Shown: piece by piece, positions 45,042-63,300 of the stretch
Layout of the letters: the number at the start of each line of letters is the position of its first letter
How positions within the stretch are numbered: the first letter of the stretch is position 1
Source: Kineococcus endophyticus
GTDB taxonomy: Bacteria; Actinomycetota; Actinomycetes; Actinomycetales; Kineococcaceae
Assembly: GCF_040796495.1 (NCBI RefSeq)
Contig: NZ_JBFNQN010000014.1
Span: 62,001-126,000, forward strand
DNA length: 64,000 nt
Direction of reading: 5' to 3'
Program-made: the position numbers and the translations under genes
The notes under the pieces: generated by a model
What the model saw: only the letters and a program-made list of their open reading frames with translations
The model's database searches: none
What the model was told of the DNA's origin: nothing

Positions 45042-46562
45042 GTGAGCGACCACCGACCCGAGCACCAGGGCTACGTCGTCGCGATCGACCAGGGCACCAC
45101 GTCGACGCGGTGCATCCTCTTCGACCACGCGGGCCGGCTCGTCGCGGTCGCGCAGCGCGAGCACCGCCAGCACTACCCCCGTCCCGGCTGGGTCGAGCAC
45201 GACGCTGCCGAGATCTGGCGCAACGTCGCCCGCCTCGTCCCGCAGGCCATGGCGCAGGTCGACGCCGGCCCGGCCGACGTCGTGGCCATCGGCATCACGA
45301 ACCAGCGCGAGACCGTCGTCGCGTGGGACCGGCGCACGGGCGACCCCGTCGGCCCGGCGGTGGTGTGGCAGGACACCCGCACGGCGGACCTCGTCGAGGA
45401 GCTGTCCGCGCAGGGCGGCGCCGACCGGTTCACCGACGTGTGCGGGCTGCCGCTGACGACGTACTTCTCCGGCCCCCGGATCGCGTGGCTGCTGCAGGCG
45501 GACGCGGGGTTGCGGCGACGGGCCGAGGCCGGCGACGTGCTGTTCGGCACGATCGACTCCTGGCTCGTCTGGAACCTCACGGGCGGGCCGGACGGCGGGC
45601 GGCACGTGACGGACGTGACGAACGCGAGCCGCACGATGCTCATGGACCTCGCGACGCTGGACTACTCCCCCCAGATGCTCGAGGTGTTCGGCGTCCCGCG
45701 CCGCAGCCTGCCGGAGATCGTGCCGAGTTCGCAGGTGTACGGCCGCGCCCGCACCGTCGTGCCCGGCGCCGTCATCGGGGCCGCCCTCGGCGACCAGCAG
45801 GCCGCGCTGTTCGGCCAGACCTGCTTCTCCCCCGGCGACGCCAAGTGCACGTACGGGACGGGCAGCTTCCTGCTGATGAACACCGGCTCGGAGATCACCC
45901 GGTCCTCCCACGGACTGCTGACGACGGTGGCCCACCAGGTCGCGGGAGAACCCCCGGTCTACGCGCTGGAGGGTTCCATCGCGGTGACGGGCGCTCTCGT
46001 GCAGTGGTTGCGCGACAACCTCGGCCTCATCTCCACCGCCCCGGAGGTGGAAACCCTGGCCCGCACCGTCCCCGACAACGGCGGCTGCTACTTCGTGCCG
46101 GCGTTCTCGGGGTTGTTCGCGCCGCACTGGCGGGCGGAGGCGCGCGGGCTGCTCATCGGGTTGACGGGGTACGTCACGAAGGGCCACATCGCCCGCGCCG
46201 CTCTGGAGTCCACGGCCTGGCAGACCCGCGAGGTCGTCGAGGCCATGGACGCCGACTCCGGCCTGCGGCTGAACTCGCTGCGCGTCGACGGCGGCATGAC
46301 GTCGAACAACCTCCTCATGCAGACGGTCGCCGACGTCCTCGACGCCCCCGTGGTGCGGCCCATGGTGAGCGAGACCGTCTCCCTGGGCGCGGCCTACTCG
46401 GCCGGCCTCGCCGTGGGTTTCTGGCCCGACCGCGAGGCGCTGCGCCGCCGCTGGCACCGCGCCGGGCAGTGGACGCCGTCGATGGAACCCGAGCTCCGCG
46501 ACCGCGGGTGGGAGGACTGGCAGGAGGCCGTCCGGCGGACGTTCGGGTGGATCCGGCACTGA
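45042..46562 (+). CDS. glpK: Glycerol kinase
   Basis: GlpK phosphorylates glycerol to sn-glycerol-3-phosphate with ATP. The 506-residue FGGY kinase has the phosphate-1 motif [11 protein letters not shown], the substrate Arg-Glu in [25 protein letters not shown], and the adenosine motif [14 protein letters not shown]. It lacks an accompanying glpF or glpD. The GTG start follows CAGGAT (45030-45035) by six bases, in a 21-bp context nearly identical to that before the TetR gene at 10238, suggesting its own leaderless promoter. Confidence 0.96.
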
Positions 46563-46648
46563 CCCTCACCCATCGAGAACTCTTCGGAACCGTTGCGGCA
46601 CAGTACGTTCGTCTTGTTCGAACGAGTCCTGAGCGGTAGGATCAGGAC
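46563..46648 (+). promoter_or_regulatory. Leaderless promoter of the DUF222/HNH gene
   Basis: TTGTTC (46614-46619), a 17-base spacer and TAGGAT (46637-46642) are followed by six bases and then the ATG, so transcription would start at or near the start codon. CGTTCG/CGAACG arms (46606-46611, 46619-46624) form an inverted repeat across the -35. Confidence 0.65.
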
Positions 46649-48157
46649 ATGACGGCGACGGTTCAGGAGCACGCGGAACACCCCGCGCACCCTGTGCCGC
46701 CGACCCGGTCGTCGCGGTTCCCTCTCGACGCCGACGGGTTCACCGACCTCGACCTCGACGCCCACCTCGCCGCCTTGCGCCGCGCCGCCGACCAAGCCCA
46801 CGCCCGCGAACTGCTCGGGCTGGCCGACCTCATCACCCAACTCAGCACCCACCCCCACCCCGACCAGGCCGGGGAACTGTCCGACCGCCGCATCCAGATC
46901 ATGGGCCGCCACCACGGCCACCCCTTCGCGGCCTGGACCCCACTGCAGGCGGCCATCGAACTGGTCGCCCTTCACCACTCCCGCAGCTGCGGCGTCCCCA
47001 TCGAATCGGCCCTCACCCACGTCTGGACCGCCCACACCGCCGGCACCGCCGAACGCCCCGTCTGGGAAGCCGTCGCCGCAGGTGAAGTCACCGCCCGCCA
47101 AGCCCGCACCATCCTGGCCCAGTCCCGCCGCCTCACCGCCCACACCGGAACCCTCACCGCAGACGCCGACGGGGAGGTCACCGAGGGTCCCGCGCTGCTG
47201 GAGGGCGAGGCTCTCACCGCGGCCCTGGACCGGTTCCACACCACCGCGCTGACCTGGGCCCGCGAGGGGAAGGTCGGCTCGGCCCTGCACGGCCGCTGCT
47301 TCCGGTTGCTGGAACGGATGACCCCGCACCACGAACGCGTCGTCCGCCACACCCGCCACCCCGGACGCGAAGCGGTCCTGACCGACTGCGACGACGGCGC
47401 CACCGCCCACCTGTCCCTCGAACTCCCCCTCGGCCTGGGACGGCGGTTGATGACGTTCGCGACCGCCTGCGCCGACGCCACCACCGACCACACCAGAACC
47501 CACGGCCTGCACGACACCCGCGACCACGCCACCCGCGTCAACGACGCCCTCGTCGACGTCCTGCGCGACGGCCTCACCCGCTTCACCCCCGCCACCTCCG
47601 ACGAGCAGCACCAGCAACCGGCCGACGCCGAGCACCCCGTCACCACCGGCCGCACCCACCGCCCCGCGACCAGCGTCCACGTCCTGCTGCGCATCGACGC
47701 GACCACCCTGTTCGGCACCGACGAGGACAACGGTGGGGAACTTCCCGAGAACTCGGCCTGGGTGGACGGCCTCGGCCCGGTGTCCATCGAGACGGCGCGT
47801 GAATTGGCCGCCGACCCCGACGCGGTCTGGCGCACGGTCGTCACCGCCCCCGGCACCCGCGACGTGATCGACGTCGCCGCCGACGTCTACCGCCCCTCCG
47901 CCGCCCTGCGCCGGTTCGTCGTCGCCCGCGACGCCACCTGCCGCGGCCCGGGGTGCGTGCGCCCGGCAGCGGACTGCGACCTGGACCACGTCGTCCCCTG
48001 GCCCGAAGGCCCCACCACCGCCGACAACCTCCAAGCCCTGTGCCGGACACACCACCGGTTCAAGACGCAGTTCGTGTGGGAGCACGTCGACGACCGCGCC
48101 GCACGGGTCGCGGTGCTGCGCGCTGCCCGCGACGCCGACGACCCACCACCCTTCTAG
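46649..48157 (+). CDS. DUF222 domain HNH endonuclease
   Basis: This 502-residue protein is of the large actinobacterial DUF222/HNH family. The DUF222 region (residues about 30-350) is followed by an HNH nuclease motif at the C-terminus (CRGPGCVRPAADCDLDHVV, then TTADNLQALCRTHHRFKT) with the zinc Cys pairs and catalytic His. These genes occur in many copies per genome; the role is unsettled (DNA damage, phage or mobile-intron origin). ATG with TAGGAT six bases upstream indicates leaderless expression. Confidence 0.92.
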   Translation: MTATVQEHAEHPAHPVPPTRSSRFPLDADGFTDLDLDAHLAALRRAADQAHARELLGLADLITQLSTHPHPDQAGELSDRRIQIMGRHHGHPFAAWTPLQAAIELVALHHSRSCGVPIESALTHVWTAHTAGTAERPVWEAVAAGEVTARQARTILAQSRRLTAHTGTLTADADGEVTEGPALLEGEALTAALDRFHTTALTWAREGKVGSALHGRCFRLLERMTPHHERVVRHTRHPGREAVLTDCDDGATAHLSLELPLGLGRRLMTFATACADATTDHTRTHGLHDTRDHATRVNDALVDVLRDGLTRFTPATSDEQHQQPADAEHPVTTGRTHRPATSVHVLLRIDATTLFGTDEDNGGELPENSAWVDGLGPVSIETARELAADPDAVWRTVVTAPGTRDVIDVAADVYRPSAALRRFVVARDATCRGPGCVRPAADCDLDHVVPWPEGPTTADNLQALCRTHHRFKTQFVWEHVDDRAARVAVLRAARDADDPPPF

Positions 48158-48158
48158 G

Positions 48159-48249
48159 GCGTCAGCAGGGCGTCAGCGCTGCCTCGCAGGGTGTCAGGTG
48201 TGCGTCAAGGACGTTCCCCGTCCGGCGCCGGCGGCCTAGCGTCGCCGTC
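48159..48249 (+). promoter_or_regulatory. GCGTCA repeat array and promoter of the SAV_915-like gene
   Basis: GCGTCA occurs at 48159-48164, 48170-48175 and 48202-48207, with GTGTCA at 48191-48196; adjacent members are 11 bp apart within each pair, and the pairs are 21 bp apart. TAGCGT (48237-48242) ends seven bases before the ATG. The same repeat in the same orientation relative to the gene precedes the kdp operon and the APC permease. Confidence 0.65.
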
Positions 48250-48540
48250 ATGTCCACCAGCGCCACCAGTTCACCAGCCCGGTTGTTCGTCCCCGTCCGC
48301 CGCCACGGCACCGCGGTGGTCCTGCGGACGTTCCTCGACCCCGGCGGGGTGCGGACGGGAGTGGGGTTCACGTCGCGGGACCTGCTGCGCGAGGTGCTCG
48401 GGGCGGAGTGCGCGTGCGTGGAACTCGGCGTCGGCGCACTGCGGCTGCTGCTGGAGGCGCGCGGCACCACGGCGCTGACCGTCGACCCGCGGCTCAGCCT
48501 CGCCCCCGCCAAGCCCCCGGCGCGTCTCGTGGCGGCCTGA
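48250..48540 (+). CDS. SAV_915-like small protein
   Basis: This 96-residue protein opens with ARLFVPVRRHGTAVVLRTFL and has VGFTSRDLLREVLG and TALTVDPRLSLAP. It resembles the SAV_915 / SseB-like small proteins of actinobacteria, whose function is not known. It is cytosolic with no membrane segment. Its promoter carries four GCGTCA-type repeats like those of the kdp genes, which hints at co-regulation by KdpE. The ATG lies seven bases after a TAGCGT element. It is convergent with the permease, with a 3-bp gap between stops. Confidence 0.7.
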   Translation: MSTSATSSPARLFVPVRRHGTAVVLRTFLDPGGVRTGVGFTSRDLLREVLGAECACVELGVGALRLLLEARGTTALTVDPRLSLAPAKPPARLVAA

Positions 48541-48543
48541 CGA

Positions 48544-50502
48544 TCAGCCGGCGTGCACCCGCGGGCGCTGCGCCGGGTCGGGGACGGCGCGGCGCACGAC
48601 CTCACGGGTCACCGGTGCGACCTCCCCGACCCCGAGGAACAGGAACCGCACGATGTTGGCCAGCGGGTTCCCCTCGGACCACTCGAACCACACGTCGGGC
48701 AGGACGCCGGTGCGGTCGCGCACCGCGAGGGCGACGGCCGCCACGGAGTTCGCCACGGCCGCACTGCGGACGGTGAGGACGCGGTGGCCGAACCGCTCCT
48801 CCCCGCACACCCGCAGCTTCGTCTCGAAGTCGGAGGCGTCCGCGACGGTGACCTCGAGGAACACGGCCGGTTCGTCGGAGGGGATGTGCTGGTCGCGGCG
48901 CTCGTCGTACCACTTCTCGGCGTACTCGGCGGCGTCCCGGGCGTCGGGTTCGTTGGCGATGATGTTCAGCGCACCGCGCGACGCGGCCTCGTCGAGGAAC
49001 CGCTGCGCCGTCTCGTCGAACTCGACGCCGTCGGCCCGCAGCTCGAACGCGCGCAGGGCGCGGGACACGAGCGAGACGGTGATGATCGCCGCGATGAAGC
49101 AGGCGGCGATCTTGACACCCTCGGGCCGTTCGACGACGTTCGCGACGGTCGTGTAGAGGAACACCACGGTCACCACCGCGAAGAACGCCCGCGCGCCCTT
49201 CTGCCCGTGGCGGTGCGCCGACAGGGTCACGGCGACGGTCGCGGACGTGATGAGGACGAGCACGCCCGTGGCGTAGGCGCCGCCCTGGGCGTCGACGTCG
49301 GCGTCGAAGATCCACGTCACGAGGAACGCGACGAGGGTGAAGAGGATCACCAGCGGCCGGACCGACCGCGCCCACTGCGGCGCCATCCCGTACCGCGGGA
49401 GGTACCGCGGCACGAGGTTCAGCAACCCGGCCATGGCGGACGCACCGGCGAACCACAGGATGGCGATGGTCGAGACGTCGTACGCGGTGCCGAAACCGTT
49501 GCCGAGGTACTCGTGCGCCAGGTACGCGAGAGCGCGCCCGTTCGCCCCGCCGCCGGGCTGGAACTCGTGGGCCGGGATGAGCACGGACGTGGCGAAGCTG
49601 GAGGCCAGCAGGAAGGCGCTCATCGTCAGGGCCGCGACCGTCAGCAGCCGGCGGGTCCCCGCGATGCGCTGCAGCAGCGCCTGTCCGCGCGAGCCGCCCT
49701 CGACCTGCGGCATGACCAGCACGCCCGTCTCGAAGCCGGACAGGCCCAGGGCGAGCTGCGGGAAGACGATGAGCGCGGCGCCGACGACCGCGAACGGGGA
49801 ACTGCCCTGCGCCAGGACCGCCTCCCACCAGCGGTGCACCGACACGGGCTGACCGATGACGTGGACGACGGCGTCGAGCACCACGACGAGGTTCAGGCCG
49901 AGGAAGACGACCACCAGGACGACCGCGACCCCGATGGCCTCGGAGAACCCGCGCAGGAAGACCGCGCCCAGCAGCGCGAGCAGGACGAGGGTCACCCCCA
50001 GCTGGTGCCCCTCGAGGAACTGCGGCACGTAGGGGTTCTCGAGGGCGTGCTTGGTCGCGTCGGCGGCCGACAGCGTCATGGTGATGAGGAAGTCGGTCGC
50101 GGCGAAGCCGAGGAGCACGAGGACGAACAGCTTGCCGCCCCACCACGGCAGCACCTTCTCCAGCATCGCGATCGAGCCCTCCCCGTGCGGGCTCTCGCGC
50201 GCGACCCGCCGGTACACCGGCAGCGCACCGAAGAGGGTCACGAGGACGAGGACGAGCGTCGCCACCGGCGAGATGACGCCGGCGGCCAGGAAGGCGATCG
50301 CCGGCTGGTAGCCGAGGGTGGAGAAGTAGTCGACCCCGGTGAGGCACACGACCTTCCACCACGGGTGCCCGGCGTGCTCGCGGTGCGGCTTGCGGTGGGG
50401 ACCGGGCTGGTGGGCCGCGCGGTCGGTGAGACCGTCGAGCAACCAGGACCGGGCGGAGTCCCGCAGGGGACGGGCGGGGGACTGCGTAGACACGACGTTC
50501 AT
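48544..50502 (-). CDS. APC superfamily permease with cytosolic C-terminal domain (candidate K+ importer)
   Basis: This 652-residue protein has about twelve membrane helices (residues about 55-480), beginning [20 protein letters not shown] soluble 150-residue C-terminal domain follows ([20 protein letters not shown]). This architecture is shared by KimA/KUP-like potassium importers and by some amino-acid permeases. It lies directly downstream of kdpE, and its promoter has two GCGTCA boxes like the kdp promoter, so potassium uptake is a reasonable inference, not proven. ATG at 50502 is chosen over 50529 by the shorter distance from the boxes and normal family start. Confidence 0.75.
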
Positions 50503-50562
50503 GGACGCACCGACCCGACGGCTCGGCAAGCCGATCGGCCGATCTTGACGCCTCGTTGACGC
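50503..50562 (-). promoter_or_regulatory. Permease control region with two 11-bp-spaced boxes
   Basis: Read toward the permease, GCGTCA occurs at 50562-50557 and 50551-50546, 11 bp apart, separated by ACGAG as in the kdp promoter. A 12-bp palindrome GATCGGCCGATC (50533-50544) follows. The boxes begin right after the kdpE stop codon. Confidence 0.65.
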
Positions 50563-51243
50563 TCAGAGCTCGAACCGGTACCCCATCCCGGGTTCGGTGA
50601 TGAGGTGCCTGGGCGCGGACGGCACCTCCTCCAGCTTGCGGCGCAGCTGACCGACGTAGACCCGCAGGTAGTTCGTCTCGCGGCCGTAGGCCGGGCCCCA
50701 CACCTCCTGCAGCAGCTGCGTCTGCCCCACGAGCCGCCCGGCGTTCGTCACCAGGACCTGCAGCAGGTGCCACTCGGTCGGGGTGAGCTTGACCGGTTCC
50801 CCGTCCCGCGACACCGTCCGGCGGGCCAGGTCGATGTGGAGACCGCCCGCGTCGAGCACCTCGGGTGCGGAGCTGTCGGTGCCGGCGCCCCGTCGGACCG
50901 CCGCCCGCAACCGCGCCAGCAGCACGTCCATCGCGAAGGGTTTCGTGACGTAGTCGTCGGCCCCGGCGTCGAGGGCGTCGACGGCGTCGGCCGAGGCCGT
51001 GCGGGCGGTGAGCACGATGATCGGCACCGGGCTCCAGCCGCGGATGCCGGCGATGACGTCGAGTCCGTCGAGGTCGGGCAGCCCGAGGTCGAGCAGCACG
51101 ACGTCCGGGTGGGTGGCCGCGGCGGCCTCGAGCGCGCCGGCCCCGTCCGCGGCCACCGTGACGTCCCAGCCGCGGGCGGAGAGGTTGATCGACAGCGCCC
51201 TCCGCAGACCGGGTTCGTCGTCGACCACCAGCACTCTGCTCAC
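50563..51243 (-). CDS. kdpE: KdpE response regulator (OmpR/PhoB family)
   Basis: KdpE is the DNA-binding partner of KdpD that activates kdp transcription when K+ is scarce. The 226-residue protein has a receiver domain with phospho-acceptor Asp in VVLLDLGLPDLDG (near residue 51), LTAR and YVTKPF. The C-terminal winged helix has LTPTEWHLLQVLV and ETNYLRVYVGQLRRKLE. Its GTG overlaps the kdpD stop (GTGA). Winged-helix regulators of this group bind direct repeats about 11 bp apart, matching the arrays found upstream of kdp and the permease. Confidence 0.96.
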   Translation of the reverse strand: MSRVLVVDDEPGLRRALSINLSARGWDVTVAADGAGALEAAAATHPDVVLLDLGLPDLDGLDVIAGIRGWSPVPIIVLTARTASADAVDALDAGADDYVTKPFAMDVLLARLRAAVRRGAGTDSSAPEVLDAGGLHIDLARRTVSRDGEPVKLTPTEWHLLQVLVTNAGRLVGQTQLLQEVWGPAYGRETNYLRVYVGQLRRKLEEVPSAPRHLITEPGMGYRFEL

Positions 51244-53861
51244 GCGCTCGATCCTGCCGCAGGTTCGGGGGCCAGCTCGTGCGCGTGCCCGGCCAGGGGC
51301 AGCTCGAGGACCATCGTCAGCCCGCCGCCGGGGGTGTCCTCGGCGTCGAGCCTGCCGCCGACGGCCTCGGCCAGGCCGCGGGCGACGGCCAGGCCGAGTC
51401 CCAGGCCCGCGGTCGAGCGGTCCCCGAGCCGCTGGAACGGCGTGAAGGCGCGCTCCTGCGCGGCCCCCGGCAGGCCCGGACCGTGGTCGACGACGAGGAG
51501 CCGGACGGCGCGGTGCCCGTCCTCGGTCGCCACGACCGCGTCCACCTGCACCCCCGAGCTCCCCGAGCCGGCGCCGTGCCGCACGGCGTTCTGCGCGAGG
51601 TTGGCCACGACGCGCTGCAGCAGACCGGGGTCGGTGGAGACCGGCGGCAGGTCGGCGGGGACGCGCACGTCGACGCCCGGCAGGTCGCGCACGGCGGCCG
51701 CCACGACCTCGTCGAGGTCGACGACGACCAGGTGGGGTTCGACGACCCCGCTGCGCACGCGCGTGAGGTCGAGCAGGTCGTCGATGAGGGCCTGGAGGCG
51801 GTCCGCGGAGTGGGCGACCTCGTCGAGTAGCTCGGTCCGGACCTCCTCGGGCAGCTCGATGTCCGTGGCGCGCAGGCTGTCGAGCGACGCCTTCAACGTG
51901 GCCAGCGGAGTGCGCAGGTCGTGCGAGACGGCCGTCAGCAGGGCTCCGCGGACGGCGTCGCCCTCCTCCAGCCGCCGTACCTGGGCCGCCTCGGCGCGCA
52001 GCCGCTGACGCTGGCGCACCGCGGCGATCTGCGCGGCGAAGACCTCCAGGACGCGGCGGTCACCGGCGACGAGGAGGCGCCCGCGCAGCACGAGGCAGGT
52101 GAGGTCGTCGACGACGACCTCGGCGTCCGCGTCGGCCGGCTGGGTGCAGACCGGGTCCCCCGTCGCCGCGGCCACGGTCCACGGCGAACGCACGTCGGTG
52201 CGTTCGAGCAGCGTCACGGAGTCGACGGCGAACGTCTCCCGGGTGTGTCGCAGAGCCTCGCTCAGCGGGTCGGTCGCCAGCAGGGCCGTGCGGGTCAGGA
52301 CGGACAGGGCCTCGGACTCCGCACGGGAGCGCTGGGCCTCCCGCGTGCGGCGCGCCGAGGTGTCGACGAGGGACGACACGGCGAACGCCACGAGCAGGAA
52401 GACGACGAGGGCGACCGCGTTCGCGGGCTGGGCGATCGTGAACTGGTGCACCGGCTCCGTGAAGAACCAGTTCACGGCCAGCCCCGCGGCCAGGGCCGCG
52501 GCCAGCGCGGGCAGGACACCGCCGGCCAGGGCGGCCGCCACCACGACGACGAGGAAGATCATCAGGTCGGTCGAGAGGTCCTGGCGCGGGAACAGCAGCA
52601 GCCCGCCGGTGACGGCGAGCGGACCCAGCAGGGCGACGACCCAGCCGAGGATCCGGCGCTCCCCCGACAGGGCCGCGCGGGCGGGCCGGGGCAGGCCGAA
52701 CGGCTTGGCCTGCTCCTCGTGCGTCACGACCAGGACGTCGATGGCCCCGGAACCGCGCACCACGGCGTCGCCCACGCTGCGGCGCACGAGGGAGGACAAC
52801 GGCCGGTGCCGACTGGCCCCCACGACGATCTGCGAGGCGTTGACCCCGCGGGCGAACTCCAGCAGCGAGGTGGCCACGTCCTCCCCCACGACCTGGTGGT
52901 AGGTGCCGCCGAGGGCCTCGACGAGCGCGCGCTGCTCGGCCAGCCGCGCCGGGGAGCTGCGGACCAGGCCGTCGCCCCGGGCCACGTGGACGGCGTGCAG
53001 TTCCCCGCCCGCGCCGCGACCGGCCAGCCGTGCAGCGCGCCGCACGAGGGTGGCGCCCTCCGGTCCGCCGGTGAGGGCGACGACGACGCGTTCGCGGGCC
53101 GGCCAGGTGGCCTCGATGCCCTGCTGGGCGCGGTAGCGCTCGAGGCCCTCGTCGACGCGGTCGGCCAGCCACAGCAGCGCCAGCTCGCGCAGCGCCGTCA
53201 GGTTCCCCGTGCGGAAGTAGTTCGACAGCGCCGCGTCGACGCGGTCCGCGGCGTAGACGTTGCCGTGGGAGAGCCTGCGCTGCAGCGCCTCCGGGGTCAT
53301 GTCGACGAGCTGGACCTGGTCGGCGGCGCGCAGCACGGCGTCCGGGATCGTCTCGCGCTGCTCGATGCCGGTGATGTGCTCGACGACGTCGTTGAGGGAC
53401 TCGAGGTGCTGGATGTTCACCGTGGACACGACGTCGATGCCGGCGGCGAGGATCTGCTCGACGTCCTGCCAACGCTTGGCGTTGCCCCCCTCCTCCACGA
53501 CGCCGGGGGCGTTCGTGTGCGCGAGTTCGTCGACGACGACGACCTCGGGGCGGCGGCGCAGGACGGCGTCGACGTCGAGTTCGGAGACGTCGAGTCCCCG
53601 GTGCCCGACCGTCCGGCGCGGCAGCACCTCCAGCCCGTCGAGCAGGGCCTCGGTGCGTTCCCGGCGGTGGCACTCCACGAGCCCCACCACCACGTCCGTG
53701 CCCCGGTCCCGGCGCCGGTGCGCCTCGTCGAGGGCGGCGAAGGTCTTGCCGACGCCGGGGGCGGCGCCGAGGAACACCCGGAGCCGCCCCCGGCGGACGA
53801 ACTCGCTCCGCGGGGTGCGGGTCGGCCTGCTGTCGGGGTCCACCTCAGCAGTGTGCGACAT
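51240..53861 (-). CDS. kdpD: KdpD osmosensitive K+ sensor histidine kinase
   Basis: KdpD senses low K+ and turgor and phosphorylates KdpE. The 873-residue protein has the N-terminal KdpD domain with Walker A FLGAAPGVGKT (near residue 35) and VVVDELAHTNAPG. A universal-stress-like domain (about 245-370), four membrane helices (about 395-500), a GAF-like part, the H-box AVSHDLRTPLATL, NLAQNAVRHG and a C-terminal ATPase domain follow. It starts 12 bp after the kdpC stop. Placement inside the operon implies autoregulation. Confidence 0.96.
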   Translation of the reverse strand: MSHTAEVDPDSRPTRTPRSEFVRRGRLRVFLGAAPGVGKTFAALDEAHRRRDRGTDVVVGLVECHRRERTEALLDGLEVLPRRTVGHRGLDVSELDVDAVLRRRPEVVVVDELAHTNAPGVVEEGGNAKRWQDVEQILAAGIDVVSTVNIQHLESLNDVVEHITGIEQRETIPDAVLRAADQVQLVDMTPEALQRRLSHGNVYAADRVDAALSNYFRTGNLTALRELALLWLADRVDEGLERYRAQQGIEATWPARERVVVALTGGPEGATLVRRAARLAGRGAGGELHAVHVARGDGLVRSSPARLAEQRALVEALGGTYHQVVGEDVATSLLEFARGVNASQIVVGASRHRPLSSLVRRSVGDAVVRGSGAIDVLVVTHEEQAKPFGLPRPARAALSGERRILGWVVALLGPLAVTGGLLLFPRQDLSTDLMIFLVVVVAAALAGGVLPALAAALAAGLAVNWFFTEPVHQFTIAQPANAVALVVFLLVAFAVSSLVDTSARRTREAQRSRAESEALSVLTRTALLATDPLSEALRHTRETFAVDSVTLLERTDVRSPWTVAAATGDPVCTQPADADAEVVVDDLTCLVLRGRLLVAGDRRVLEVFAAQIAAVRQRQRLRAEAAQVRRLEEGDAVRGALLTAVSHDLRTPLATLKASLDSLRATDIELPEEVRTELLDEVAHSADRLQALIDDLLDLTRVRSGVVEPHLVVVDLDEVVAAAVRDLPGVDVRVPADLPPVSTDPGLLQRVVANLAQNAVRHGAGSGSSGVQVDAVVATEDGHRAVRLLVVDHGPGLPGAAQERAFTPFQRLGDRSTAGLGLGLAVARGLAEAVGGRLDAEDTPGGGLTMVLELPLAGHAHELAPEPAAGSSA

Positions 53862-53873
53862 CGGGGCGGCCGC

Positions 53874-54467
53874 TCAGGGGGCGAGCTGCTGCAGCGCGAG
53901 GTTGAGCTGCAGGACGTTGACGACCGGCTCCCCGAGGAAGCCGAGCTGACGGCCCTCGGTGTGCGCCGCGACGAGCGAGGCCACCTGCTGCTCGCTCAGC
54001 CCGCGGGCCGCGGCGACCCGGGCGACCTGCTGCCGGGCGTACTCCGGGGAGATGTCCGGGTCCAGGCCGGACCCCGACGCCGTGAGGGCGTCGGGCGCGA
54101 CGTCGGCCGGGGCGGTGCCGTCGGCGGCGGCGAGGGTCGCCCGACGCTCCTCGACGGCCTTGAGCAGGTCGGAGTTCTCCGGGCCGAGGTTCGAGGCGCC
54201 GCTGGAGGTCGGGTCGTAGCCGTCCTTCCCGGCCGCCGAGGGGCGCGGCCAGAACCACTCGTTCCCCGTGAACTGCTGGCCGATGATCGCCGAGCCGACC
54301 GGTGTGCCGGCGCTGGTGACGATCTGCCCGTCCGCCCGCCCCGGGGTGAGCCGGCCGATCCCGAACACGAGCAGCGGGTAGAGCAACCCCAGCACGACGG
54401 TGGCGGCGAGGAGCAGGCCGAGGCCGGTGCGGGCCTGGCGGAACAGGTTCGTGAAGGTGAGGGACAT
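53874..54467 (-). CDS. kdpC: K+-transporting ATPase KdpC subunit
   Basis: KdpC is a single-span accessory subunit that stabilises the KdpFABC complex and aids ATP binding. The 197-residue protein has one membrane helix near residues 13-38 (LLLAATVVLGLLYPLLVFGI). The conserved periplasmic motifs are IIGQQFTGNEWFWPRPSA, SGASNLGPEN, and the closing LGFLGEPVVNVLQLNLAL. It lies 5 bp after the kdpB stop. Confidence 0.96.
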   Translation of the reverse strand: MSLTFTNLFRQARTGLGLLLAATVVLGLLYPLLVFGIGRLTPGRADGQIVTSAGTPVGSAIIGQQFTGNEWFWPRPSAAGKDGYDPTSSGASNLGPENSDLLKAVEERRATLAAADGTAPADVAPDALTASGSGLDPDISPEYARQQVARVAAARGLSEQQVASLVAAHTEGRQLGFLGEPVVNVLQLNLALQQLAP

Positions 54468-54472
54468 CCGTC

Positions 54473-56596
54473 TCAGCCGATTCCGGGGATCTGGGAGATG
54501 AGCAGGTCGAGGAGCTTGATGCCCACGAACGGCACCACCACCCCGCCGAGGCCGTACACGAACAGGTTGCGGCGCAGCAGGGCGGCGGCGCTGGAGGGCC
54601 GGTAGCGGACACCGCGCAGGGCCAGCGGGATGAGCGCCACGATGACGAGCGCGTTGAACACGACCGCGGAGACGATGGCCGACTCCGGGGTCGCCAGACG
54701 CATGACGTTCAGCACGTCGAGCTGCGGGAACGTCGTGACGAACATCGCCGGGATGATGGCGAAGTACTTGGCGATGTCGTTGGCGATGGAGAACGTCGTC
54801 AGCGCGCCGCGGGTGATGAGGAGCTGCTTGCCGATCTCGACGATCTCGATGAGCTTGGTCGGGTTGGAGTCCAGGTCGACCATGTTCCCGGCCTCCTTGG
54901 CCGCGGTCGTCCCGGTGTTCATGGCGACCCCGACGTCGGCCTGGGCGAGGGCGGGGGCGTCGTTCGTGCCGTCGCCCATCATCGCCACGAGGCGACCGCC
55001 GGACTGCTCGCGGCGGATGAGCTCGAGCTTGTCCTCCGGCGTGGCCTCGGCGAGGACGTCGTCCACGCCTGCCTCGACGGCGATGGCCCGCGCGGTCCGC
55101 TCGTTGTCACCCGTCACCATGACGGTGCGGATCCCCATGGCGCGCAACTGCTCGAAGCGTTCGCGCATGCCCTCCTTGACGACGTCCTTGAGGTGGATGA
55201 CCCCCAGGACGCGGGCGCTGTCCCGCCCGTCCGTGACGACGTTCTCCGCCACGACGAGCGGGGTGCCGCCGGCGGTGGAGATGTCCTCGACGACCTGCCC
55301 GACCTCGGCCGGGACGTCCCCGCCGAGGGTGCGGACCCAGTGCGTGGCGGCGGCCGCGGCGCCCTTGCGGATCTGGCGCGCTCCCGTCTCCGTGGCGATG
55401 TCGACCCCCGACATGCGCGTCTGGGCGGTGAACGGCACGAACTCGGCACCGGGCAGTTCGCCCTCGGACCGGGCGCGCAGCCCGAACTGCTCCTTGACGA
55501 GGACGACGACGGAGCGGCCCTCGGGGGTGGCGTCGGCCAGACTGGACAGCTGGGCGGCGTCGGCCAGGACCGCCAGGGTCACCCCCGGCGCCGCGACCAG
55601 TTCGTGCGCCTGCCGGTTCCCCAGGGTGATGGTCCCGGTCTTGTCGAGCAGCAGCGTCCCGACGTCCCCGGCCGCCTCGACCGCGCGGCCCGACATGGCC
55701 AGCACGTTGCGCTGCACGAGGCGGTCCATGCCGGCGATGCCGATGGCCGACAGCAGGGCCCCGATCGTCGTCGGGATGAGGCAGACGAGCAGGGCCACGA
55801 GCACGACGGTGCTCTGCGGCTTCCCCGAGTAGACCGCCATGGGCTGCAGGGTGACGACGGCCAGCAGGAACACCAGGGTGAGGCTGGCCAGCAGGATGTT
55901 CAGCGCGATCTCGTTGGGCGTGCGCTGGCGGGCCGACCCCTCGACGAGGGCGATCATCCGGTCGACGAAGCTCTCCCCCGGCTTGGCGGAGACGCGCACG
56001 ACGATGCGGTCGGACAGCACCGTGGTGCCACCCGTGACGGCGCTGCGGTCGCCGCCGGACTCGCGGATGACGGGGGCGGACTCCCCCGTGATGGCGGACT
56101 CGTCGACGCTGGCGACGCCCTCGACGACGTCGCCGTCACCGGGGACGGTCTCGCCGGCCTCGACGACGACGAGGTCACCGACGCGCAACTGGCTGGAGGA
56201 GATCCGTTCCTCCTCCCGTCCGTCGACGAGGCGCCGCGCGACCGTCTCGCTGCTCACCTTGCGCAGCGACGCGGCCTGCGCCCGGCCACGCCCCTCGGCC
56301 ACGGCTTCGGCGAGGTTGGCGAACAGGACCGTGATCCACAGCCACGCGACGATGACCCACGAGAACACCGACGGGTCCGACACCGCCAGGACCGTGGTCA
56401 GGACCGCGCCGACGGCGACGACGAACATGACGGGCGTCTTGACGAGGTGGCGCGGGTCGAGCTTGCGGAACGCGTCCGGCAGCGACTGCACGAGCTGCGC
56501 GGGGCTGAAGGCGCCGCTGGAGACGCGGTGCGGGGCGGCCGGTTCGGGCTCCGGCGCACCGGGGGCAGGGGTGGGGGTGCTGGTGACGGTGCTCAC
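54473..56596 (-). CDS. kdpB: K+-transporting ATPase KdpB (P-type ATPase)
   Basis: KdpB is the ATP-hydrolysing P-type subunit that drives K+ uptake through KdpA. The 707-residue protein has the actuator TGES in [13 protein letters not shown], the phosphorylation site [13 protein letters not shown] (Asp near residue 308), the hinge [17 protein letters not shown], and seven membrane helices in the KdpB layout. Its GTG overlaps the kdpA stop by four bases. Confidence 0.97.
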
Positions 56597-58266
56597 GACT
56601 GGACTCCAGTGAGGGCCTCGGCGATGGGGCCGAGGGCCAGGGCGGGGAAGAACGTCAGGGCGGTGACCACGACGACGACGGCGAGGTGCATGCCGGCGAA
56701 GGTCGGGGTGCGGGTGGGCAGCGTGCCGGCCGTCGCGGCCGCGGGCTTCTGCACCGCGAAGGCCCCCGCGAGCGCCAGGACGAACAGCATGGGCAGGAAC
56801 CGGCCGAGGTAGATCGCCAGTCCCAGCGCGATGTTGTAGAACGGCGTGTTCGCCGACAGCCCGGCGAAGGCCGACCCGTTGTTGTTCGCCGCCGAGGCGA
56901 AGGCGTAGAGCATCTCGGTCAGCCCGTGCGGGCCGCTGTTGAGCAGCGCCGAGCGCGTGTCCGGGCTCGAGAGGGCGATCGCCGCACCGACGAGCAGGAC
57001 GCCGGGGGTGACGAGGATGTAGAGCGCGGCGTAGGTGATCTCGCGCTGGCGGATCCCCTTGCCCAGGTACTCGGGGGTGCGCCCCACCATGAGCCCGGCG
57101 ACGAACACCGTGATGATCGCCAGGACGAGCATCCCGTAGAGGCCGGAACCGACCCCGCCGGGCGTGACCTCACCCATCATCATGTTGAGCATCACCATGC
57201 CCCCGCCGAGGGCGGTGTAGCTGTCGTGGAACGAGTTCACCGCCCCGGTCGACGTGGACGTCGTCGCGGTCGCGAACAGCGCGGACGCCCACTCCCCGAA
57301 CCGGCTCTCCTTGCCCTCCAGGGCCGCGCCCACCGCCTGCGGGACGGTGCCGAGCGCGTGCGTCTCGGCCCAGGTCGTCACGGCCAGCGAGACGCCGAAG
57401 ACGGCGCCCATGACCGACAGGACCGCCAGGCCCTGCTTCCGGTCGCCGACCATCGTGCCGAACGTGCGCGGCAGGGAGAACGGGATGACGAGGATCAGGA
57501 AGACCTCGAACAGGTTGCTGAACGCGTTCGGGTTCTCGAACGGGTGCGCGGAGTTCGCGTTGAAGAACCCGCCCCCGTTCGTGCCGAGTTCCTTGATGAC
57601 CTCTTGCGAGGCGATCGGGCCCCCGACGATGGTCTGCGAGCCACCGGCCAGCGTGGTGTAGGTGGTGTCACCCGCGAAGTTCTGCACGACCCCCGTGAGC
57701 AGCAGGACGACGGCCCCGACGATCGACAGGGGCAGCAGGATGCGCAGCGTCCCCCGGGTGAGGTCGACCCAGAAGTTGCCGATCGTCCCCGAACCGCGCG
57801 AGACCAGGCCGCGGACGAGCGCCACCGCGACCGCGAGCCCGACCGCCGCCGACAGGAAGTTCTGGACCGTCAGCCCCGCCATCTGGGCGAGGTGCCCGAG
57901 GGCCGCCTCGCCGGAGTACGACTGCCAGTTCGTGTTGCCCACGAACGACACGGCCGTGTTCCACGCCTGCGTCGCCTCCATCCGGGGCCGGCCCAGGGAC
58001 AGCGGCAGGACGTTCTGGACGCGCAGCAACGCGTAGAGGAAGAGGATCGAGACGGTCGAGAACGCCAGGACGGACAGGGCGTAGGTCGGCCAGCGGGTGT
58101 CGGCGTCGCCGTCGACGCGCAGGATCCGGTAGAACCCGCGCTCGACGCGCAGGTGCCGCGTGCTCGTGAACGTGCGGGCCATGAAGTCGCCGAGCGGGAC
58201 GTGCACCGCGGCGAGCAGGACGATGAGCAGGCCGATCTGGAGCAGGCCGGCCGTGGTGTCGGTCAT
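56593..58266 (-). CDS. kdpA: K+-transporting ATPase KdpA (channel-like subunit)
   Basis: KdpA is the K+-selective, channel-derived subunit of KdpFABC. The 557-residue protein has about ten helices and four pore loops with filter-type glycines: [44 protein letters not shown] and [13 protein letters not shown] at 58266 has GGAGAA at proper spacing and lies 14 bp after kdpF. Confidence 0.97.
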
Positions 58267-58280
58267 CTGTGGGTTCTCCG

Positions 58281-58370
58281 TCAGAACTTCTCGGGGCGCA
58301 GCAGCGCGTACAGCAGGTAGCCGGCGATCACGACGGCGAGCACGAGGCCCACCGCCGCCGATGCGGTCAC
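58281..58370 (-). CDS. kdpF: K+-transporting ATPase KdpF small subunit
   Basis: This 29-residue single-helix peptide ([18 protein letters not shown] followed by [10 protein letters not shown]) stabilises the Kdp complex in the membrane. The ending [10 protein letters not shown] is the family hallmark. Its GTG overlaps the stop codon of an even smaller upstream ORF (GTGA), so its translation is probably coupled to that ORF. Confidence 0.93.
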
Positions 58371-58450
58371 CGGCGCTCCAGCGAGCGCACCAGCAGGGCG
58401 CAGACCGCGGCGAGGGCGAGGGTCAGGGCGACGAACCCGACGTCGAGCAC
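58367..58450 (-). CDS. 27-residue membrane microprotein, first gene of the kdp operon
   Basis: The ORF encodes [20 protein letters not shown] followed by VRSLERR: a short polar start, one hydrophobic helix of about 18 residues, and a basic cytoplasmic tail. GGAG lies seven bases before the GTG. Its stop overlaps the kdpF start by three bases, so it is translationally coupled to kdpF. It has the size of KdpF but not its LRPEKF ending, so it is a separate peptide, possibly an extra Kdp subunit or a leader controlling kdpF. No known family was recognised. Confidence 0.65.
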
Positions 58451-58575
58451 GGGAACTCCAGGGTGAGGGCGGGACGAACCCCACCACCACAGCACCGCGG
58501 GCATCCTCCACCGCCCGTCCTGACGCGTCCTTGACGCCGACCGGCGTCCTCGTTGACGCCTTCCTGACGGGTGGC
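58451..58575 (-). promoter_or_regulatory. kdp operon control region with five in-phase 11-bp boxes
   Basis: Read toward kdp, the units at 58570-58565 (CCGTCA), 58559-58554, 58537-58532 and 58526-58521 (all GCGTCA) lie on an exact 11-bp grid, with a degenerate member at 58548-58543. This is the expected layout for cooperative binding by KdpE dimers. The -10 and -35 elements are not certain; the last box is about 70 bp before the first start codon. Confidence 0.7.
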
Positions 58576-59997
58576 TCAGCCCTTCGGGGCGAAGTCCCGC
58601 GGACGGAACCGGCCCTCGTGCAGCCGGCCCTCGATGTCCTCCAGGCTGTGGCCGGTCAGCTCCGGCATGCGCTTGAACAGGAAGACGAAGGCCGCGATGT
58701 TGAAGGCCGCGTACAGCCAGAAGGTCTGCCCGGTGCCGATGGTGTCGATGACGCTCAGCAGGGTCAGCGTGATGAGCAGGTTGGTGCCCCACAGGGCGGC
58801 GGACTGGGCGGCGGCCCCGGCCGAGCGGACGGCGAGCGGGTAGATCTCCGAGCCGGTCAGCCAGCCCATGAGCTGGATCCCGCCGGCCGTGAAGGCCATG
58901 AACACCACGAGGGTGGCGATGATCCACGGCACCTGGGCCTTGCCGCTGTGGCCGGTGACGAAGAACGTGCCGAGCACCACCATGGCCAGCGCGGCGCCCG
59001 GCAGCGTGATGAGCGTCAGGCGGCGGCGGCCGACCCGGTCGATGATCGCCAGGCCCACGAGCTGGGCGAGCAGGTAGGTCGCCCCCAGGGCCACCGAGAC
59101 CCGCAGCGCCGTCGAGTCCGGGAAGCCGTTGTCGGTGAGGATCGTCGGGGAGTAGTAGACGATCATCTCGATGCCGGACAGCTGGGTGAACACCGCGAGT
59201 CCGCAGCCGACGACGACCGCCGGCCGGACCCAGCCCTCGCGCCAGCCCCGCCACCCGCGGGTGCTGGACCGGCTCTCCTCGTGGACCAGCCCGCCGATCT
59301 CCGCCAGTTCCGCGTCGACGTCTGCGCCGCCGGGTCGGACCCTCTCCAGCGAGGTGCGCGCGTCGTCCTCGCGGTCGGCCTTGAGCAGCCAGCGCGGGCT
59401 CTCGGGCAGCCGCAGCATGAGGACGAGCATCACCGCGGCCGGCACGGCGGCCGCCCCGATCGAGACCCGCCAGTCGACGGCCTCGCTGGCCCCGACGATC
59501 GTGGCGACGAGGATGCCGACCCCGATGGCGATCTGGAAGCACAGGACCAGCCGACCCCGGTAGGCCGTCGGCGAGAGCTCCGCCACGTACGTGGGGGCGG
59601 TCTGCGTCGCCCCGCCCACGGCGAAACCGAGCACCACCCGGGCCAGGGACAGCAGTTCGGGGTTCGGGGCGAAGGCGGCGCCCAGGGTGCCGACGACGAA
59701 CACGACGGCGACCACGAGCAGGGTCCCGCGTCGCCCCCGGCGCTCGCTGAGCCGGCTGCACGTCAGCGCCCCCACGACCGCGCCGGCGAGGATGGAGGCC
59801 GCGATGACCTGTTCCCAGCCGTTGCCGATGTCGAAGTCCTCCCCGATCTGCAGCAGCGCGCCGGAGATGATCCCGGTGTCGTACCCGTAGAGCAGGCCGG
59901 AGACGGCCGAGACCAGCGCCACGACGACGACGGCACCGGTCAGCTCCCCTCCCCGCGTCGCCTCGGAGGTGTGAGCTGCGCCACGGGACCGGTCCAC
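58576..59997 (-). CDS. MFS sugar porter family transporter
   Basis: This 473-residue protein has twelve membrane helices and sugar-porter signatures: GYDTGIISGALLQI in helix 1, RLSERRGRRGTLL, PTYVAELSPTAYRGRLV, LPESPRWLLKADR, TQLSGIEMIVYYSPTIL, DRVGRRRLTLI. It probably imports a hexose, pentose or polyol by H+ symport; the substrate is unknown. GTG at 59997 gives about 28 cytoplasmic residues before helix 1; no strong ribosome site is seen, so the start is uncertain. The stop abuts the kdp boxes. Confidence 0.9.
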   Translation of the reverse strand: MDRSRGAAHTSEATRGGELTGAVVVVALVSAVSGLLYGYDTGIISGALLQIGEDFDIGNGWEQVIAASILAGAVVGALTCSRLSERRGRRGTLLVVAVVFVVGTLGAAFAPNPELLSLARVVLGFAVGGATQTAPTYVAELSPTAYRGRLVLCFQIAIGVGILVATIVGASEAVDWRVSIGAAAVPAAVMLVLMLRLPESPRWLLKADREDDARTSLERVRPGGADVDAELAEIGGLVHEESRSSTRGWRGWREGWVRPAVVVGCGLAVFTQLSGIEMIVYYSPTILTDNGFPDSTALRVSVALGATYLLAQLVGLAIIDRVGRRRLTLITLPGAALAMVVLGTFFVTGHSGKAQVPWIIATLVVFMAFTAGGIQLMGWLTGSEIYPLAVRSAGAAAQSAALWGTNLLITLTLLSVIDTIGTGQTFWLYAAFNIAAFVFLFKRMPELTGHSLEDIEGRLHEGRFRPRDFAPKG

Positions 59998-60383
59998 GTT
60001 CCCGACCCAAGCACCGCTACGCCGACCGCGCCCGCCGGAACCGTCGCCCGGTCCCTGACGCCTCACCCCCTGCCCCGCAGCGGTCGCCTCCTCCTGTCCG
60101 GAGTCGTCCTCGTCGTCCTGGCCGTCGTCTGCGACGCAGCCGGGCTGCGCGGTGCGGCCGCCACGGTCCTGTTCCTCGGCGCGGTGCTGGCCGGGTCGCT
60201 GCACTCCCGACCGGCGTTCGCCCTCCTCACGGCGGCCACGACGGGGTCCTGCGCCTCGGTGGCGGGCGCTGGCAGGAGCTGCTGCTGTTCGCGGTCGCCG
60301 CGCTGCTGACCTGCGTCACCCACCGCGGTCGGCGCACGGTTCGTCCACAGGAGCCCGGAGGGCGGACCGCGCGCAGCACGTAG
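59971..60383 (+). pseudogene. Possible frameshifted small membrane protein
   Basis: In one frame a hydrophobic run LLLSGVVLVVLAVVCDAAG and then AGSLHSRPAFALLTAA is read to about 60245. The +1-shifted frame continues with GRWQELLLFAVAALLTCVTH to a stop at 60381. Together they would make a two- to three-helix protein, but a single frame does not. This may be a decayed gene, a sequencing error or chance in a GC-rich gap. The start is uncertain, and the proposed GTG overlaps the divergent transporter start. Otherwise this 395-bp gap shows no gene. Confidence 0.3.
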
Positions 60384-60392
60384 GCTGCGCGG

Positions 60393-63300
60393 GTGCTCGT
60401 CGTCCACGGCCTCTGGACCCGCGAGCAGCGGTTGGCCCTGTGGGTCGAGGCGCCCCGCCGCCGCCCCGGACCGGCACGCCCCGCCGACCTCGCGGCACTG
60501 CCCCGGACCTGGGACGCCCTGATCTCAGCGCTGGCCTCCCCGGTCACCGGCACGCTCCCGGTCTCGTTGCCCTGCACACCGTCCGGCCGGCCCGCGGCCT
60601 CCACGGGGCGACCCCGCACGGACCTGCGGCTGCTGCCGGTCGACCTGGACGTCGTCGAGCTGACCGGCGAGCGGGCCGTGACGCTGCTCTTGGAACTCAG
60701 CGCGCCGGCCGGGGACGGGGTGCGCCTGTCCGACGGGCTGGCCTGGCTCGTGCACGTGGCCGCGGGGGCCCGCCGGGCCGTCGACGCCGGACACGTGGTG
60801 CCGGACCTCGCGCCCGCGGGTGACCGGGGGTTCACCGCGCGCTGGGTCCCCGCCCCCGACCGCGCCGTCGGACGGTGGCGCACCGCGGTGGCCCAGGCGT
60901 GCCCGCCCGTGCTGCGGGCCGAACGCTCCCACCGTGGTCCCGCGCACGGGCCGCCACAGGCCCTGGACCTGCTCGACGACCTGTGCGGGGTCGTCGTCGA
61001 CGTCCTCGTCGCGGCCCGCACGGCCCACGTCGTGCCGCACGACCTGCCCGACGGCGCGAGCGCACGCGCGTGGATCGGCGCGCTGCGCACGGGCGAGCCC
61101 CTGCGCGGGGAGGGCTGGGCCGCCCTGTCGCGCCGCGTCCGGGAGTGGCAGCGCAGCGGTGAGGACGCCGGGTACGACGTGCTGCTGCGCGTCGTCGAAC
61201 CCGAACCGTGGGAGGACGTCCCCGCGCACCTGGCCGACGGGCATCTCGACGGGGACGACTCCCCCGAAGCTCCCGACCAGAGCTGGCGGTTGCAGGTGCG
61301 CTTGCGGCCGCTGGACGACCCGAGCCTCGTGCTGACGCTCGAGGAGGCGCGCACCGAGACGCGCGCGGGCGGTTCGGCGGCTGGTGAGGACCCGCTCCTG
61401 GTCCTGCTCACGGGCGCCGCCCGGGCCGGCGCGGCGCACCCGCCGCTCAAGCGGCTGCTCAGCGGACGGGCCGACGCCGCCGCGCAGGACGGCGTGGACC
61501 TGACGATCGAGGAACTGCTCGACCTCGTCGAGCAGGGTGGTCCGCGCCTGACCGCGGCCGGCGTCGCGCTGCAGCTCCCGCGGCACTGGACGAAGAAGGC
61601 CCTGACGTTCTCGCTGTCGGCGTCGGCGTCCCAGCCGGGCGCCATCACCGACCCGCAGGTGCGCAAGGACGACCTGCTCGACTTCCGCTGGCAGGCGGCC
61701 CTCGGCGACTCCCCCGTCACCGAGGCCGAACTCCTCGCCCTCGCGGCGTCGAAGTCGTCCCTCGTGCGGTTCCGCGGTGAGTGGGTCCAGGTGGACCCCG
61801 AGGCGCTCGCGCGCAGCGCCCGGTTCCTGCGCACGCGGGGCAACGGCAAGGCGTCGCTGCTCGACGTGCTGGCCACCGTCGGCACCGGCAAGGACCTCCC
61901 CGGTCCGGTGACGTCGGTCGACGCGCGCGGGGTGCTCGGCGACGTGCTGTCCGGGCAGGCGGCGGAGCGGCTGCCGGAACTGCCCGACCCGCCCGGGCTG
62001 CACGCCGTCCTGCGGCCCTACCAGCGGCGGGGGTTGACCTGGCTGGCGACGATGTCCCGCCTCGGGCTCGGCGCCGTCCTCGCCGACGACATGGGACTGG
62101 GCAAGACGCTGCAGCTGCTGGCGCTGCTCGCGCACGAACGCGGCGACGAGCCCGGGCCCACGTTGCTCGTGTGCCCGATGTCGGTCGTCGGCAACTGGGC
62201 CGCCGAGGCCGCGAAGTTCGCCCCCGACCTGCGCGTCCACGTCCACCACGGGACGGGACGGCCCCGCGGCGCGGAGTTCACGGCGCTCGTCGCGCAGCGC
62301 GACCTCGTGGTCACCACGTACGGCCTCCTGGTGCGCGACGTCGCCGACCTCGCGGCGGCCGACTGGCACCGCGTCGCCCTCGACGAGGCCCAGTACGTCA
62401 AGAACGCCGCCACCCGGCAGGCCCGCGCCGTGCGGGCCGTGGGGTCCCGGCACCGCGTCGCCCTGACCGGGACGCCGGTGGAGAACCGGCTCGAGGACCT
62501 GCGGGCCGTCCTGGACGCGACGAACCCCGGACTGCTCGGCAGCGCCGCGACGTTCCGCGACCGGTTCGCCGTCCCCATCGAGAAGCTCGGTCACGCCGAA
62601 CCCGCCGAACGCCTCGCCCTCGTGACGCGGCCGTTCGTCCTGCGCCGGGTCAAGACGGACCCCGCCGTCGCCGGCGACCTGCCCGAGAAGATCGAGATGA
62701 CGGTGCGGGCCAACCTCACCCCGGAGCAGGCGGCGCTGTACCGGCGCGCCGTCGACGACCTCACCGAACGACTGCAGGACAAGGACTCCGACCCCGGTGG
62801 CCTGTCCCGGCGCGGGCTGATCCTCGCCGCCCTCACCCGGCTGAAGCAGATCTGCAACCACCCCGCGCACTACCTCGGGGACTCCTCCGGGGTCCTGCAC
62901 CGCGGCCGGCACCGCTCGGGGAAGCTGCAATTGCTGGACGACATCGTCACCTCGGCGCGGTCGGAGGGCGAGAAGGTCCTGTGCTTCACGCAGTTCGCCG
63001 AGTTCGGCCACCTGCTCGGCCCGCACCTGGCCGGGCTCACGGGCGAACCGGTCCCGTTCCTGCACGGCGGGGTGAGCCGGCGAGGTCGCGACGCCATGGT
63101 CGCGGAGTTCGCCGAGGCCGACGGTCCGGGTGTCATGCTGCTGTCCCTCAAGGCCGGCGGGACGGGTCTGAACCTGGTGGCCGCCAACCACGTCGTGCAC
63201 GTGGACCGCTGGTGGAACCCGGCGGTGGAGGACCAGGCGACCGACCGGGCGTTCCGCATCGGTCAGCGCCGGCAGGTGCAGGTCCGCAAGCTCGTCAGCG

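Follow-up and report, generated by a model that had tools for sequence, protein, structure and literature searches.

The window analysed here, a 64,000-nucleotide stretch of Kineococcus endophyticus DNA (NCBI RefSeq assembly GCF_040796495.1, contig NZ_JBFNQN010000014.1, positions 62,001 to 126,000), holds a candidate KdpE regulon. Direct repeats of a short box at 11-bp spacing stand upstream of the kdp operon, of a gene for a KimA-like permease and of a gene for a small protein of the SAV_915 family. We put at about 0.87 the probability that these boxes are KdpE operators through which the Kdp ATPase, the KimA-like symporter and the SAV_915 protein would be jointly induced, a reading drawn from sequence. 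The prediction that KdpE governs several K+ importers as one regulon is well supported at the sequence level, because the arrays are conserved, the mapped KdpE site of Mycobacterium smegmatis fits them, the permease matches KimA in fold, and TrkH-type genes of two related genomes (G008 and G003) contrast in their upstream boxes. The first two of these points support the initial annotation, which had proposed a KdpE regulon of three promoters, with KdpE as the presumed binder.

Box arrays in three leaders

The coordinates and letters of the boxes given for the three leaders by the initial annotation match the sequence, as do the flanks that it described as shared, GCGTCAACGAGG in the kdp and permease leaders and GCGTCAAGGACG in the kdp and SAV_915 leaders. 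The arrays and the elements behind them are as follows.

58521..58570, minus strand: kdp operator made up of four GCGTCARG-type boxes, with starts at 58570, 58559, 58537 and 58526 (gaps 11, 22 and 11)
50546..50562, minus strand: permease operator, a single pair with box starts at 50562 and 50551
48159..48207, plus strand: SAV_915 operator, four boxes with starts at 48159, 48170, 48191 and 48202 (gaps 11, 21 and 11)
58486..58491, minus strand: -10-like element TGTGGT, putative promoter element, 35 bp on from where the last kdp box begins
48237..48242, plus strand: -10-like element TAGCGT, putative promoter element, 35 bp past the start of the last SAV_915 box

The two boxes before the permease were found exactly as described, while the other arrays required some revision. 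The GCGTCA core holds, but the box is 8 bp long, GCGTCARG. Five 11-bp grid positions do span the kdp array, but only four carry boxes, the third (58548) reading GACGCC; the four boxes before SAV_915 are present, but their grid is interrupted by the 21-bp gap. Pairs at 11 bp thus stand as the unit, with two pairs separated by a gap near 21 bp as the usual form. Single boxes also depart from the core, that at 58570 reading CCGTCA and that at 48191 GTGTCA.

The offset from the last box to the -10-like element is identical in the kdp (58526 to 58491) and SAV_915 (48202 to 48237) leaders, and a similar offset recurs, by eye, in several others. TGTGGT is found as the same word at the same offset in some kdp leaders of the genus, and CCTAGCGT is present at all three SAV_915 orthologs. 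No clear -10 element was seen in the permease leaders of five genus orthologs. A TTGCC-like word in that leader (window 50502-50562, minus strand) lies 22-23 bp beyond the start of the final box in three orthologs and 33 bp beyond it in two, and reads TTGCT in G009.

Three copies of the exact pattern GCGTCA-N5-GCGTCA lie in the window, where dinucleotide shuffles would give 0.03, and none of 100 shuffles reached three. Across the 5.04-Mb genome from which the window derives (G000) there are five occurrences, and none of a reversed-pattern control. Three of the five are the kdp, permease and SAV_915 leaders; the fourth (L005) lies inside an open reading frame (ORF) of 485 amino acids (aa) and the fifth (L001) at the 3' end of a tadA-like ORF beside a tRNA-Ser-like stretch, both names having been given by eye.

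Conservation within and beyond the genus

Twelve genomes of the family were searched as the genus set, nine of them with KdpA. Full arrays precede kdp in seven of the nine; the array of G010 is cut by a contig end, and the portion still visible fits. The permease has eight matches in seven of the twelve genomes. All five close orthologs (78-100% identity) are preceded by a pair, that of G009 with a one-letter change, and the other three matches (55-57% identity) have no exact box upstream, G010 offering only 63 upstream bases on its contig. The SAV_915 gene is present in three of the twelve (G000, G001 and G005), each time behind four boxes, one of which in G005 is two letters off GCGTCA. The gaps are 11, 21 and 11 in G000 and 11, 11 and 11 in G001 and G005. 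In G001 a distance of 1.6 Mb separates the gene from kdp, and in G005 the two are on different contigs.

The 58 genus boxes give a consensus of GCGTCA followed by A (38) or G (20) and then G (52/58). This set takes in three weak GCGTCG boxes of G004, and the last two positions played no part in the choice. Because chosen boxes were required to have a partner 11 bp away, the 11-bp spacing within the genus is not an independent result. The strict pattern CGTCARG-N4-CGTCARG has 32 matches in the twelve genomes, 22 of them at kdp, permease, SAV_915 or TrkH genes, and all 20 matches that contain a CGTCAAG box sit at these genes. Tandem arrays of 11-bp units were also noted at G008:C56:229807-229857 (CGTCAGGCGCC) and G002:C75:21196-21234 (GCGTCACGCCG).

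A weight matrix built from the 58 genus boxes only was then applied to 70 kdpA starts in 69 genomes outside the genus. These were all the starts that a set of 198 genomes from the order yielded, once the second piece of each of two split KdpA genes had been set aside. In the last 600 bases, on the sense strand, the mean best score at spacing 11 was 15.3 bits, with 46 of the 70 above 12 bits. Further sense-strand peaks were seen at spacings 21 and 32 only, the other spacings from 8 to 40 giving a mean best score of at most 2.4. The antisense strand of these upstreams showed no peak (mean -0.5 at spacing 11; 3/70 above 12 bits). When 900 bases were taken, 47 of the 70 exceeded 12 bits, compared with 0.2% of 1400 single-base shuffles, and these 47 operons come from 22 of the 34 genera and 11 of the 13 families represented. 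This number may be a lower bound, since several of the remaining upstreams keep the same grid with different letters (for example CCGTTAGGGATCCGTGAGGA in L129).

Outside the order, where 25 of 45 KdpA-positive genomes were examined, other orders of the class carried a pair at spacing 11 in 10 of 15 kdp upstreams (11 of 15 at 32), and other classes in 3 of 10. The comparison of kdp upstream regions suggested by the initial annotation therefore bears out its proposal, from 7/9 in the genus through 47/70 in the order. From this conservation in order and class, the layout box-11-box-21-box-11-box is likely old.

The matrix was also compared with the minimal KdpE site of M. smegmatis, which the available part of the source describes as a 22-bp stretch in front of kdpFABC, mapped by footprint and electrophoretic mobility shift assay (PMC5401905). 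This site scores 13.1 bits at spacing 11, read as CCGTAAAG-N3-CCATCAAG, and 1 in 100,000 shuffles reaches that score.

Genes behind the boxes

58367..58450, minus strand: 27-aa ORF (MLDVGF...LERR) with a GTG start, overlapping the kdpF start; start codon chosen by conservation
58281..58370, minus strand: kdpF (29 aa), named from position and shape, no family model
56593..58266, minus strand: kdpA (PF03814, TIGR00680)
54473..56596, minus strand: kdpB (TIGR01497)
53874..54467, minus strand: kdpC (PF02669, TIGR00681)
51240..53861, minus strand: kdpD sensor kinase (KdpD, Usp, DUF4118, HisKA and HATPase domains)
50563..51243, minus strand: kdpE response regulator (PF00072 and PF00486), proposed binder; adjoins kdpD
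48544..50502, minus strand: candidate KimA-like K+/H+ symporter (652 aa), from an AlphaFold2 model whose top matches are KimA; start codon by eye
48250..48540, plus strand: SAV_915 family small protein (96 aa; NF042914, 44.9 bits against a cut-off of 40)

On the minus strand the order is thus kdpF, kdpA, kdpB, kdpC, kdpD and kdpE, followed by the 652-aa transporter. KdpE, encoded beside KdpD, has receiver and winged-helix domains. It scores 237 bits against the NCBIfam KdpE equivalog NF007820, the best of 102 models and below the 325 cut-off; this lowers the claim to equivalog status, not that of its working with KdpD. Its best match in the Protein Data Bank (PDB) is E. coli KdpE (4kny), with which it has the helix motif YLRxYxGxLRxKLE in common; for the E. 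coli protein, two recognition-helix residues, R193 and R200, are reported to be important for binding. At E 1e-60, KdpE was found in ten of the twelve genus-set genomes and not in G003 and G011.

Several further features of these loci were recorded. The 27-aa ORF upstream of kdpF is present in eight of nine genus kdp leaders, and similar ORFs (MLDV...GVE) precede kdpF in L129 and L137. G009 has two kdpDE copies (L092 and L093), the KdpE near its KimA-like permease being 88% identical and that in its kdp operon 66%. In G008, where KdpA was not found, a kdpDE pair (L090, G008:C43:128000-147000) appears to be a regulator kept without the pump. No Rfam family was found in 46000-61000 at gathering thresholds.

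The gene behind the single pair had been called an APC permease. A permease gene does stand there, but its product is KimA-like by fold and has no sequence-family match in Pfam or NCBIfam, or in PDB by single sequence or profile; one of 26 relatives matches AA_permease_2. The model combines a membrane fold with a cytosolic domain like that of KimA, its best structural match over 514 residues, cytosolic domain included, at 14% identity. The K+-site residues of KimA (D36, Y43, T121, S125, T230, E233 and Y377) were compared by spacing, not by residue-level superposition. Invariant residues of the permease recur at equal spacing as D58/Y65, T141/S145 and S255/E258, and Y410 is a candidate for Y377, from spacing only. 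By the fold of its model, the protein is a candidate K+/H+ symporter of the KimA type.

Relatives of the permease in other genomes were taken as the best 80 of 590 permease-like stretches, and 25 of these 80 loci have Kdp genes within 6 kb of the permease. In L206-L284 the paired boxes lie mostly 85-190 bp upstream of the permease, and in the Streptomyces loci among them they run on the strand opposite to it, often as GCGTCAAGCTTGCGTTAAGA. In nine Streptomyces-type loci the longest ORFs divergent from the permease were mostly implausible, with a plausible protein only in L257 and L276. The divergent gene of these two (L257 4962-5762 and L276 4959-5759) resembles, by eye, the DUF4118 membrane part of KdpD.

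A second class of candidate importer emerged in G008, which has KdpE and KdpD: a perfect pair, GCGTCAAGGACGCGTCAAG, precedes a TrkH-type gene. Its product matches the whole TIGR00933 model (297 bits, E 2.2e-88), below the 331 cut-off and hence as a relative. The closest counterpart in G002 (78% identity), where KdpE is present, has a pair that departs by one letter, whereas the closest in G003 (76%), where KdpE was not found at E 1e-60, has no pair upstream. For the other 13 TrkH-like matches, a search of 250 bases that allowed up to two mismatches found no pair.

Of the predicted regulon members, SAV_915 stands on the least firm ground. Near permeases in other genera, the search for it returned two weak matches only (E 0.07 and 0.57).

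KdpE as the proposed reader of the boxes and known operators

Three observations weigh against reading the boxes as KdpE operators. G000 has 52 GCGTCA pairs at spacings from 6 to 30, about two per spacing, so that five exact pairs at spacing 11 are only mildly high; a one-mismatch scan of the genome gave 45 against 40 in the control and is uninformative; and the kdp leader of G002 lacks an array in the 3.18 kb searched, a clear exception. The genome-frequency check recommended with the initial annotation thus found the exact pair mildly over-represented, but is weak taken alone, and the case rests on clustering, position and conservation. Both genome counts speak for a rival reading in which the repeats arose by chance in GC-rich DNA and are clustered by coincidence. 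This is ruled out by the three occurrences in the window where shuffles predict 0.03 and by strand- and spacing-specific conservation across independent genomes, in particular the 70 kdp upstreams outside the genus, and we consider its probability negligible.

A regulator of the OmpR/PhoB family other than KdpE might instead read all of the boxes and co-regulate kdp, as 11-bp direct repeats are common in this family (PhoP, for example, in the portion of the literature available). We regard this as improbable given that the M. smegmatis KdpE site fits the matrix, that the boxes are conserved at kdp leaders over many genera, and that G003 and G011, in which KdpE was not matched at E 1e-60, lack a CGTCAAG-type pair, the TrkH leader of G003 included. 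A narrower alternative is harder to dismiss. KdpE would control kdp, the permease and the TrkH gene, and the SAV_915 leader would be the operator of a separate member of the OmpR/PhoB family whose box (GCGTCAG) is nearly identical. In G000, G001 and G005 the SAV_915 boxes do mostly read CGTCAG rather than CGTCAAG, the gene lies away from kdp in two of these genomes, and related regulators are many, the KdpE search having returned 45-79 first-look candidates per genome. Each of the three SAV_915 arrays nevertheless contains one CGTCAAG box, kdp arrays likewise mix CGTCAGG and CGTCAAG, and in the window SAV_915 and kdp have the same distance between last box and -10-like element. We consider a separate SAV_915 regulator unlikely, though a good deal less so than a different reader of all the boxes.

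With KdpE as the reader, the following mechanism is proposed. When K+ is short, KdpD would phosphorylate KdpE, a known chemistry of the family. Each pair of GCGTCARG half-sites at 11-bp spacing would be occupied by one KdpE dimer in head-to-tail arrangement, with two dimers on the two pairs at kdp and SAV_915 and one at the permease. The inner gap is 22 bp at kdp and 21 bp at SAV_915, 21 being the common value in relatives. At kdp and SAV_915, where the last box starts 35 bp before the -10-like element, the proximal dimer would by this geometry sit immediately upstream of the -35 region, a position from which it could recruit RNA polymerase, and the second dimer would lie behind it. The Kdp ATPase, the KimA-like K+/H+ symporter and the small SAV_915 protein would then be induced together.

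Extended to the Actinomycetes, these data lead us to favour, with some reserve, a model in which KdpE, beyond switching the Kdp pump locally, heads a K+-starvation regulon whose members share a single operator code (GCGTCARG pairs, 11/21/11). The set of members would be rewired between species to take in the KimA-like symporter, a TrkH-type transporter (also in a species with KdpDE and without the pump) and the SAV_915 protein. A defined operator would make KdpE targets predictable from sequence and would link two further classes of K+ importer, and the SAV_915 family, to K+ starvation.

The window permease resembles KimA of Bacillus subtilis, a K+/H+ symporter of the KUP family, in fold and cytosolic domain, and differs from it by an identity of only 14% and by having no Pfam or NCBIfam match. 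E. coli PhoB operators are direct repeats read by the same regulator family, and the half-site letters and regulons of PhoB and PhoP differ from those of the Kineococcus boxes. The PhoP operators of Mycobacterium tuberculosis, in the available part of their source, are also direct repeats for a regulator of this family, with 7-bp motifs and a 4-bp spacer.

An 11-bp direct repeat as a KdpE site is already known from E. coli, whose half-sites TTTATA-N5-TTTACA are, in the portion of the source available, direct repeats of 6 bp on either side of a 5-bp spacer (PMC3264566). They have the same period as the Kineococcus boxes, but are AT-rich, unrelated in letters and present as one pair, at -72 to -50. 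The M. smegmatis site, the only actinobacterial KdpE site found in the open-access literature searched, is closer: like those of Kineococcus, its half-sites CCGTAAAG and CCATCAAG lie 11 bp apart and fit the matrix, so that it becomes readable as an 11-bp direct repeat, a term absent from the main text of that paper (PMC5401905). In the available part of the same source, the published minimal site is a single pair, unlike the two-pair kdp layout of Kineococcus, and other K+ transporters are not mentioned among the targets of KdpE. As far as searches of the open-access literature show, three things are new: the reading of the GC-rich half-site as a repeat, the arrangement in two pairs, and the proposed extension to KimA-like, TrkH-type and SAV_915 genes.
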